From an uncultured Bacteroidales bacterium (GTDB lineage: Bacteria > Bacteroidota > Bacteroidia > Bacteroidales > WCHB1-69), in assembly GCA_905233585.1 (NCBI GenBank), contig CAJOFD010000011.1:1-47712 (forward strand): 47,712 bases of DNA, given 5' to 3'. A model generated the notes under the pieces. It was given only the letters and a program-made list of their open reading frames with translations, ran no database searches and was not told the origin of the DNA. Shown here piece after piece: positions 12,078 to 14,983 of the stretch. Both the position numbers and the translations under genes were made by a program. Within the stretch, counting starts at the first letter, position 1; each line of letters begins with the position of its first letter.

Positions 12078-13946
12078 ATGAACGATATTTTCGATGTTAT
12101 TGTAGTAGGAGCAGGTCATGCAGGTTGTGAAGCGGCGATGGCTGCATCACGCTTGGGTGCAAAAACTCTGCTTATTACCATGAATTTGGATACCATTGCC
12201 CAAATGTCTTGCAATCCGGCAATTGGCGGTGTCGCAAAAGGGCAAATAGTTAGAGAAATAGACGCATTAGGCGGATATACTGCAAAAGTAACAGACGAAT
12301 CTACTATTCAATTTAGAATGCTGAACCGATCAAAAGGTCCTGCCATGTGGAGCCCGAGAGCACAATGCGACAAACAACAATTTTCTATTATTTGGAAAAG
12401 ATATTTAGAACACCAACAAAATCTTTTTTTAAGAGAAGATACCGTTGTTGATGTGGAAACAGAAAATAATGCCATTGCTGCTGTAAAAACAAAATTGGGA
12501 AAAACCCTAAAAACAAAAGCACTTGTTTTGACAGCGGGGACTTTTTTGAATGGCAAAATTCATATTGGCGAAGTGAATTTTACCGGCGGTAGAATAGGGG
12601 AGCAGGCAAGTTTTGGCATTACGGAAAAACTGATACATTTGAATTTTAAAACCGCCCGCCTGAAAACGGGTACCCCTGTGAGAATAGACGGCAGAACCAT
12701 AGATTTTTCCAAAATGGAAAAACAACAAGGAGATGACAATCCGCAAGGTTTTTCTTTTTATGACAAAAAGCCTGTGACAAACAAAAAATGTTGTTGGATT
12801 TGTTACACCAACACTCAAATTCACGATACTTTGAGAACAGGGTTTGAATTTTCTCCTATGTTTCAAGGACGAATAAAAGGCGTTGGACCGAGATATTGTC
12901 CGTCTATCGAAGATAAGATAGAAAGATTTGCCGACAAAGAAAGACATCAATTGTTTTTGGAGCCGGAAACAGAAAACGGTATTTCCTATTATTTGAATGG
13001 TTTTTCTTCTTCTTTGCCTGAAGAAATACAATTGAAAGCATTAAGACAAATTGCAGGTTTGGAAAATGCACATATTCTCAAACCCGGCTATGCTATCGAA
13101 TACGATTATTTTGACCCGACCCAACTGAAATCAACTTTGGAGACCAAACAAATAGAAAATCTTTATTTTGCCGGACAAATAAATGGAACAACGGGTTACG
13201 AAGAAGCGGCATCGCAGGGTTTGATGGCCGGAATAAATGCGGTAAGAAAAATCAAAAATCTGCCTCCTTTTATTTTAAAAAGAAATCAATCGTATATCGG
13301 TGTGTTGATAGATGATTTGGTAACAAAAGGAGTGGATGAACCTTATAGAATGTTTACCTCCAGAGCGGAATATAGAATCTTGTTGAGACAAGATTCTGCC
13401 GACACCCGATTATGTCCCTTGGCCTATGAAATAGGAATGATAGACCAAAATACTTTTGCCCAATTTGAACAAAGCCAAAAAAAACTTTGTGCTTTGATTG
13501 GATTTTTTGAAAACATGTGGGTTGAGCCGAATCAGATAAATGAATTTTTGGAACAAAAACAATTGTCATGTTTATCTCAAAAAACAAAATTTTCCCAATT
13601 GTTATTACGACCGCAATTGTCTGTTTTTGAACTGAAATCCGTTTTGCCCCAAATACAGGATTATTTGTATGCAAACGATATTGATGATACAATTTTGGAA
13701 AAGGCGGAAATTTTGGTAAAATATGCAAGTTATATAGAAAAGGAAAAACAGATGGCTGAAAAAATGCAGAATTTGGAAAATATAAAAATTCCGCAGAATA
13801 TGGATTATTTTTCCATACAGTCTCTTTCTACTGAAGCCAGACAAAAATTATCAAAAATACAACCTTTGACCATTGGGCAGGCTTCCCGCATAAGCGGAGT
13901 GTCTTCTTCCGATATTTCGGTGTTGCTTATCTTGTTGGGGAGATAA
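12078..13946 (+). CDS. mnmG: tRNA uridine-34 carboxymethylaminomethyl-modification enzyme, FAD subunit
   Basis: MnmG (GidA) works with MnmE to modify U34 of several tRNAs. ATG 12078 gives 622 aa, the normal length. The FAD-binding [12 protein letters not shown] lies at residues 9-20, [11 protein letters not shown] near 47, [14 protein letters not shown] near 150, [12 protein letters not shown] near 270, and [18 protein letters not shown] near 365. Readings that start earlier from TTG or GTG would translate the parS palindrome (giving MFHVK) and are rejected. It is the last gene of the ATPase-ybeY-mnmG group, and its stop codon abuts a second parS-like site. Confidence 0.95.
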
Positions 13947-13962
13947 TGTTTCACGTGAAAAG
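13947..13962. other. Second parS-like site after mnmG
   Basis: TGTTTCACGTGAAAAG matches the parS consensus at 14 of 16 positions and keeps the TTTCACGTGAAA core palindrome. It begins at the base after the mnmG TAA. With the perfect site at 12055 it brackets the gene. Confidence 0.7.
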
Positions 13963-14189
13963 TTTTCGTAAAAAATTAAATATCAATAGTTTAATTTCAT
14001 TTCTACATTTTTTGACCAGCTTCAAAATAGTGAAAATCGATTTTAAGGCGGTTTTTCTGAAAAGATGACAATTATATTGACTGACACCCTAAAACACGCT
14101 TAAAATTGAAGTTTTTTATAATACACTGATTTAAAACAATTTGAGATAGTACAGTTTTTGGGTGGCTGTATGTTTAACAAAAAATTGCT

Positions 14190-14197
14190 TATCTTTG
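14190..14197 (+). promoter_or_regulatory. -7 element of the structured RNA
   Basis: TATCTTTG followed by CAAAA matches the -7 consensus. A start would fall near 14203. No well-spaced TTTG is visible; the nearest, at 14157-14160, is 29 bp away. Confidence 0.5.
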
Positions 14198-14202
14198 CAA
14201 AA

Positions 14203-14427
14203 ATTTAAATAGTATTTTTATGTAGAACAACAATTTTTGATATAGAAATAGCGGTTCGAAGTTATTCTTGATACTCCAATTTTCCACATTGTCTTTTATA
14301 TAGAAAGACACTAACTCAAGAATAGGTTCTCGAAATGCCGTATGTATTGCGGCGTGGGCAGGCTTGTTGGAGTTAGTGTGGGCGTGGAAACCCGGAGTAT
14401 CAGACAAGATGTTTCCACGCCTTTTTT
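14203..14427 (+). ncRNA. Structured leader or small RNA with alternative anti-terminator and terminator folds
   Basis: A long-range helix can form from TGATACTCC (14269-14277) with GGAGTATCA (14394-14402), then, past a 3x3 internal loop, TTTCCAC (14281-14287) with GTGGAAA (14384-14390). Inside it CACTAACTC (14309-14317) pairs with GAGTTAGTG (14370-14378), leaving a lopsided bubble of 21 and 5 nt. The same GTGGAAA is also part of an intrinsic terminator, GGCGTGGAAAC (14381-14391) with GTTTCCACGCC (14411-14421) plus six T. The two folds exclude each other. Closing stem, bubble and apical stem recall 6S RNA in outline, but identity is not established; a riboswitch or attenuator for the next gene is the other reading. 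Confidence 0.6.
14381..14427 (+). terminator. Intrinsic terminator directly before the XRE gene
   Basis: Eleven perfect base pairs (14381-14391 with 14411-14421), a 19-nt loop and six T at 14422-14427, ending 5 nt before the ATG at 14433. Its left arm overlaps the long-range helix of the RNA. Confidence 0.8.
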
Positions 14428-14432
14428 ATGTC

Positions 14433-14783
14433 ATGGAAAATAAAAATATGCAGCAACAAAGTCTTCATATCGGGCACTTGGTGAAAACCGTTTTTGATGA
14501 AAGCGGGCTTACTGTGGCGGAGTTTGCCAAACGGATATACTGCGACCGCACCAATGTATATAAAATTTTTGCCCGCCGCAGCTTGGATACGGCATTGTTG
14601 GTGAAAATTTCCAAAGCCTTGCAACACAATTTTTTTGTGGATGTGATGAATATGTCCGGCTTGGCGGCGGATATTCCCGTTCGGCATAGTTTGATGCTTT
14701 CTATAAATGATATGTCTGCAGACAATATTGATACGCTGTCTCATTTCTTTGAATCCTTGAAAAATCAGAAAGACAGTGAATAA
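14433..14783 (+). CDS. XRE-family HTH transcriptional regulator, 116 aa
   Basis: ATG 14433 is chosen because the longer reading from 14364 would translate the terminator. The HTH lies at about residues 15-70: HIGHLVKTVFDESGLTVAEFA, CDRTNVYKIFARRSLDTALLVKISKAL. This domain style is frequent in Bacteroidota and is DNA binding. The C-terminal part (SLMLSINDMSADNIDTLSHFF) has no recognised motif. Expression would require readthrough of the terminator ending 5 nt upstream or another promoter. A 15-bp palindrome overlaps the stop codon. Target genes are unknown; the envelope gene group downstream is a candidate only by position. Confidence 0.75.
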   Translation: MENKNMQQQSLHIGHLVKTVFDESGLTVAEFAKRIYCDRTNVYKIFARRSLDTALLVKISKALQHNFFVDVMNMSGLAADIPVRHSLMLSINDMSADNIDTLSHFFESLKNQKDSE

Positions 14784-14790: not shown

Positions 14791-14860
14791 AGGAAAAACA
14801 ATTGAAACTATGGGAAAATTGGTAAAAAACAGAAAAAGTCCTTCGGCTGATATTGACATT

Positions 14861-14948
14861 TTTCGGGGTGGCCGAATATTTCATATAGAAAGATTTCGGG
14901 GTCAGCGGATATTTTGATGAAAAAAAATTCGGGGTAGGCGGATATTTT
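14861..14948. repeat. 33-bp tandem repeat, about 2.7 units
   Basis: Units start at 14861, 14894 and 14927, exactly 33 bp apart. Each has a GC-rich core TTCGGGGTnnnCGnATATTT and an A-rich spacer. On the minus strand the repeat is open and reads an 11-residue unit (KYPPTPNFFSS, KYPLTPKSFYM, KYSATPKNVN). No start signal or normal protein surrounds it, so I treat it as a DNA repeat. The rest of 14791-15128 holds a hairpin and a promoter. Confidence 0.75.
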
Positions 14949-14983
14949 TGCCTGTACTCTTGTCTTGAACCTTTACATATCCC

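Follow-up and report, generated by a model that had tools for sequence, protein, structure and literature searches.

The non-coding element between positions 14204 and 14428 of the window, the term used here for the entire 47,712-nucleotide stretch of Bacteroidales DNA under analysis, is probably (at a rough probability of 0.6) the 5' leader of the message of the adjoining helix-turn-helix (HTH; XRE) regulator gene and one of a Bacteroidales family of attenuator RNAs with two states. The element is real and exceeds what can be expected by chance, with a minimum free energy (MFE) of -69.8 kcal/mol compared to -48.7 ± 4.3 kcal/mol in dinucleotide shuffles (z-score -4.9; 0/200). It lies in the 5' leader of a gene on the same strand and can adopt two exclusive conserved folds, one of which places a hairpin directly before a U-run. 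A new RNA family of cis-acting attenuators provides the best fit to this succession of promoter, leader, exclusive folds, U-run and gene. An initial annotation had read the region as attenuator-like and upstream of an XRE regulator, and this reading is strengthened by the covariation of both folds, by the appearance of a terminator hairpin once one alternative helix is enforced, and by the linkage of the RNA to HTH genes across many genomes.

The element is situated between mnmG (gidA), which ends at 13946, and the gene for a 116-aa Cro/C1-type HTH regulator (14433..14783, + strand), in which a further in-frame ATG (14448) agrees with where the related proteins begin. A candidate -7 promoter box of the Bacteroidetes TAnnTTTG type (TATCTTTG / TATCTTTGC; about 14190-14198, + strand) was recognised in the sequence and predicts a transcription start near 14204, in agreement with the start near 14203 given in the initial annotation. 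On the basis of this promoter, the folding z-score and the covariance-model family, the leader RNA is predicted to extend from the start site to the end of the U-run (14204..14428, + strand), with the folded part reaching from approximately 14238 up to the T-run (14422-14427, + strand). The in-frame ATG at 14433 is located 5 nt beyond this T-run, as had been noted previously. TAnnTTTG motifs are found no more than 110 nt upstream of 59/102 copies of the RNA (33/61 high-scoring and 26/41 lower-scoring copies), compared to 8 % of random places. Against the attenuator, many copies closely follow a same-strand gene and have no obvious promoter of their own. The motif TATTAACGAAA is present in the leaders of 33/98 copies, in most cases some 45 nt ahead of the RNA, compared to 5 % of random places. 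Two further features of the locus were observed. Just past mnmG, the sequence TGTTTCACGTGAAAAG (13947-13962) fits 14/16 positions of the parS consensus; a parS-like site is expected near the replication origin. Three imperfect direct copies of TTCGGGGTnnGCGGATATTT (14858-14950) occur 3' of the HTH gene and are possibly the remnant of an insertion sequence.

The first of the two folds is a long rod, all segments of which are encoded on the + strand. Its outer helix is formed by segments b (14268..14277; changes on both sides in 7/9 pairs) and b' (14394..14403), and its second helix by segments c (TTTTCCAC, 14280..14287; 99.7 % paired) and c' (GTGGAAA, 14384..14390). These correspond to the long-range helix with internal loop described in the initial annotation, which is supported by compensatory changes. 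The inner helix that it described, between segments d (14308..14317) and d' (14370..14379), was likewise recovered with compensatory changes among 49 copies, along with the apical hairpin e (GCCG...CGGC, 14337..14353), which is derived from both the covariation alignment and folding. The covariation of long-range and inner stems across homologues thus answers the doubt, raised with the original proposal, that these stems may not covary. A variable local hairpin, P5 (14290..14310), shows changes on both sides in 6/6 pairs. On the 5' side, the P2 hairpin or dyad (ATAGC...GTTAT, 14248..14265; 94 % paired) has the form GATAGC-N7-GCTATC in relatives and is weak in the window copy itself, and the 5' arm of a closing helix P1 (TGATATAGAAA, 14238..14248) can, according to the MFE fold, pair with 14423-14433 beyond the U-run, which would be possible only after readthrough. 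In alignment A3, which comprises the 49 high-scoring (tier-1) copies and served for the covariation counts of both folds, 93.4 % of the cells of the rod (P2, b, c, P5, d and e) are paired, with 26 pairs showing changes on both sides compared to 15.2 in shuffles. When helix partners were swapped between copies, b was weakened by 12.6 s.d. (z -12.6) and d by 13.0 s.d. (z -13.0). Among otherwise similar tier-1 copies, stems b and d are hypervariable, with column entropies of 1.55 and 1.18 compared to 0.12-0.37 for a, c, e and t3, and their variants usually have both arms altered and are reassorted in a barcode-like manner.

The second fold consists of a helix a-a' with a distal extension (GCGUUU/AAAUGC), followed by a 3' hairpin with the arrangement GGCGUGGAA..CUUG..GGG/CCC..CAAG..UUCCACGCC. 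Segment a (14251..14271, + strand) was assigned on the basis of partner swapping, covariation and folding, and its apical partner a' (14316..14340, + strand) on covariation and on its pairing in the growing chain. The 5' side of the 3' hairpin is provided by e3 (GGCGTGG) and the adjoining CTTG (14351..14366, + strand; 99 % and 98 % paired, with compensatory changes), and its 3' arm by t3 (CAAG...TTTCCACGCC, 14405..14421, + strand), which is identified by covariation and constrained folding. Between them, a small hairpin h (GGG-CGTGGAAA-CCC, 14380..14393, + strand) is altered from GGG/CCC to AGG/CCU in seven copies, and in tier-2 copies takes forms such as AGGU/ACCU, GGUA/UACC and GGUGU/ACACC; for copies other than tier-1, only inspection and hairpin h served to check the alternative fold. 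Since h encloses c' in its loop, it is incompatible with the rod. Over the 49 copies, 94.7 % of the cells of the alternative fold are paired, with 16 pairs showing changes on both sides compared to 7.2 in shuffles (45 cells compared to 12.2), a test that is weakened because the fold was picked after inspection of the sequences. Six of the 16 covarying pairs are in P5, which is common to both folds, and a slid-register control gave 6-11 pairs. Partner swapping weakened a-a' by 4.2 s.d. and e3-t3 by 3.7 s.d. Three short sequences are claimed by both folds, UUGA by a and b, UC by d and a', and GGC by e and e3. The rod and the alternative fold are mutually exclusive, and both are conserved with compensatory changes.

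The initial annotation had proposed a different competition, in which an 11-bp terminator (GGCGTGGAAAC/GTTTCCACGCC; c'-t3) draws on the GTGGAAA segment. The existence of two states was borne out, but the segments for which competition is conserved are for the most part other than GTGGAAA, and the partner of the 3' arm in the supported alternative is the apical GGCGUGGAA. The c'-t3 helix can form in the window copy, where its probability is 0.16 at full length, but changes on both sides are absent among the 49 homologues and partner swapping weakened it by only 0.4 s.d. It was thus rejected as the conserved alternative and retained as a physical competitor in the window copy. The same helix bears on the notion of a static structured leader that ends in an ordinary local terminator and undergoes no regulated switching. 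While c'-t3 is pairable in 94 % of the cells, e3-t3, h and a-a' show the changes on both sides that it lacks, and such a leader appears very improbable.

Equilibrium calculations on growing or constrained chains, rather than a kinetic simulation, were used to follow the two folds. In the window copy, a-a' has a probability of 0.93-0.99 at transcript ends 14326-14370 and is later replaced by d, c and b, with the rod being dominant at full length. Among 48 copies, the probability of the e3-t3 terminator rises from 0.02 in the free chain to 0.81 with a-a' enforced, at a mean cost of approximately 11 kcal/mol, and exceeds 0.5 in 41/48 of the constrained copies. With a-a' enforced in the window copy, e3-t3, which there comprises 7 bp only, attains 0.59 in competition with c'-t3, and t3 is taken up in a hairpin before the U-run in either case. 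Given that the rod is more stable by this mean of about 11 kcal/mol, the terminated state would have to be reached kinetically or be stabilised by an unseen factor, which counts against the attenuator. A further point against it is that some relatives have an interrupted U-run (CGCCAUUUGUAUG).

For the attenuator, these calculations suggest the following course of events. Transcription would start some 35-45 nt ahead of the folded part, and the 5' segment of the emerging RNA would pair first with the apical segment (a-a'). Where a-a' persists, the apical GGCGUGGAA and the 3' arm would form the hairpin before the U-run, leading to termination and a small RNA of about 225 nt. Where the descending strands invade and complete the rod (b, c, d and hairpin e), the 3' arm would be left free, with readthrough and production of the HTH protein, after which the closing helix P1 could bury the U-run. 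The rod should therefore be the readthrough state, and a-a' together with the 3' hairpin the terminated state. We infer that termination takes place and that the choice between the folds is regulated; candidates for the deciding signal are a ligand, the HTH protein or the speed of transcription. The P2 dyad could also serve as a DNA operator for an HTH dimer.

Several searches place the window copy in a larger family. A DNA search of the same genome recovered four copies (73-100 % identity). A covariance model derived from six copies (R1; rough E-values) matched 52/104 genomes of the family and 61/393 of the order and, in a phylum-wide draw of 395 genomes, two genomes besides the window's own, of the same class and another order, all of which are undercounts as the R1 searches were strictly filtered. 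With a broader model built from 31 diverse copies (R2; alignment fitted to the rod, rough E-values), at least 28 copies were distinguished in the 2.28-Mb source genome (a draft of 78 contigs), and copies were found in 19/40 order-wide genomes, with up to 26 in another genome. The hosts, as named in their record titles, include rumen and hindgut Bacteroidales metagenome-assembled genomes, one of which is labelled Paludibacteraceae, and the RNA also occurs beside HTH homologues in Phocaeicola massiliensis, Bacteroides finegoldii and Parabacteroides distasonis. No family of Rfam 15, including the riboswitch models, was matched by any RNA examined, and text searches of the literature recovered no description of it; the family is widespread in gut Bacteroidales and apparently undescribed. 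The weak Rfam matches at 14100-14500 (ten up to E 10; ctRNA_pND324 and others, E 0.75-10) were judged to be due to chance, and DUF805b matches are confined to a few loci, where they lie 3' of the RNA and are distinct from it.

The genes that follow the RNA are likewise recurrent. The window protein matches HTH_3 (E 7e-4) under the gathering score and a paralogue on contig C9 matches HTH_26 (E 3e-9) over it, and there are 11 further genes of this family in the source genome (12 homologues in all). Among the 102 copies, 48 lead into the HTH family (41/61 high-scoring and 7/41 lower-scoring), and the HTH genes directly after high-scoring copies encode Cro/C1-type proteins of 70-116 aa. A same-strand ORF starts within 250 nt of 57/58 high-scoring and 34/38 lower-scoring copies, compared to 46 % of random places, and in many copies the start codon lies directly on the U-run. 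For 26 of the 28 copies listed in the source genome, an ORF on the same strand lies within about 320 nt; eight copies precede HTH genes, and most of the others precede genes with exported-looking products, an enrichment which is suggestive only, as 21/47 window ORFs pass the same crude signal-peptide test. When the search was started from the protein, the RNA was found directly upstream of about ten of the 11 HTH genes with complete upstream sequence in the source genome (the exception being C16), as well as of HTH genes in B. finegoldii, P. massiliensis and P. distasonis. R2 also identified the RNA upstream of HTH genes at eight loci outside its training set; it detected none upstream of good homologues at four other loci, which counts against the attenuator, likewise none at a fifth, and none (0/7) upstream of weak HTH relatives. 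Individual copies differ in their surroundings. One copy in the source genome (C48:1087-1297) precedes a MutS_I and bAvd-like gene that resembles an accessory gene of diversity-generating retroelements. Nine loci that precede exported-protein genes form a subgroup in which the ends are near-palindromic (TTTGTACAT...ATGTGCAAA) and another small element (GTGCCGATGGGATATAAATGGCAC) lies immediately before the start codon, with DUF805b called by Rfam in only one of them (L209).

This gene linkage bears on two other explanations. The RNA may be a small RNA acting in trans, 6S-like or another abundant non-coding RNA, whose position before genes is incidental; it would normally end at the U-run, with leaky readthrough accounting for expression of the HTH gene. 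The presence in many copies of a U-run and a separate TAnnTTTG promoter, the rod-like shape, the length of about 190-225 nt, the stability of the rod state, and a high copy number reminiscent of multicopy Bacteroides small RNAs such as FopS (PMC11697453) agree with this; however, there is no Rfam 6S match in the genome or region, a same-strand gene is nearly always directly downstream with start codons abutting the U-run, and a conserved second fold would be unnecessary. A trans-acting role is thus considered unlikely. The element may also be a DNA-level mobile or recombination unit, such as a MITE-like element or integron-like cassette site, with the RNA features as by-products or later co-opted. 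This could account for the 28 copies in one genome, for near-identical cores with differing flanks and HTH genes, for the near-palindromic ends of the above subgroup, and for chimeric copies with mismatched b and d arms (L118 and the second copy of L136; for example, b CTTGAGTTC and b' GGATGTC), which are presumably recombinants with a broken rod. Furthermore, at nine loci isolated 5' fragments of the RNA, consisting of the leader and GATAGC...CCTTGAnnnTCAAATT, pass abruptly into another copy with its own leader or into R-M, DUF1016, MNT-HEPN or KilA-N genes, which suggests that the RNA contains a single site of cassette-like recombination. By contrast, the promoter, U-run and G-U-tolerant helices are at fixed positions, the linkage to a single HTH family is tight across distant genera, neither an integrase nor a target duplication was seen within the loci read, and there is no match in viral or phage collections, and such a unit appears even less likely than a trans-acting RNA. 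A viral, phage or plasmid origin was also rejected, as the window element has no DNA match in phages or plasmids and the family patterns have none in viral contigs.

The attenuator may be part of a wider scheme, which we put forward tentatively. The RNA could represent a new class of sensing leaders, present in tens of copies per genome in gut Bacteroidales, where refolding between the rod and a two-hairpin terminator switches a regulon of small Cro/C1 regulators and exported proteins; either a ligand or the HTH proteins, each acting on its own leader, would set the fold. If this is correct, a dominant order of the gut, the Bacteroidales, possesses a leader-RNA regulon that is large and apparently unnamed, the RNA would rank among the more abundant structured families in some of their genomes, and the control of many tiny XRE and exported-protein genes would be explained. 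As exact base pairs are predicted and relatives are present in B. finegoldii and Parabacteroides distasonis, both of which are cultured, these predictions are directly testable.

Several known RNAs share features with the element. The initial annotation had remarked on a likeness to 6S RNA, which was not upheld: neither 6S RNA (RF00013) nor 6S-Flavo (RF01685) has a match in the genome at E <= 10 or is among the ten matches near the region up to E 10, and the at least 28 copies nearly all precede a gene. Bacteroidales-1 (RF01693) also has no match in the source genome, while the control genome does match. Both 6S RNA and Bacteroidales-1 are similar to the element in their length, rod-like fold and possession of an alternative fold. 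They differ from it in terms of its copy number and placement before genes, and 6S RNA differs further in its open central bubble, in place of which the covarying hairpin P5 is found mid-rod. FopS and SnoA (PMC13370916) of B. thetaiotaomicron were rejected as identities, both being different RNAs. FopS, which has a single-stranded 5' seed and a terminator hairpin and acts in trans on susC messages, is likewise a paralogous family with many copies per Bacteroidales genome and sigma-ABfr promoters (PMC11697453), whereas the window RNA is a long rod encoded before HTH genes. A survey of human microbiomes places HTH-XRE genes among the most frequent neighbours of candidate structured RNAs (100/3161; PMC8040213), and this type of neighbour is shared with the element; for those candidates, the main text of the survey gives no model, mechanism or family. 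Transcription attenuators and riboswitch platforms have in common with the element the promoter-bearing 5' leader, exclusive helices, hairpin before a U-run and adjoining gene. They differ in that no known aptamer or leader peptide was seen here, that nearly the whole 190-nt RNA refolds between a rod and two hairpins, and that many copies per genome precede HTH and exported-protein genes, the regulation of which is predicted.
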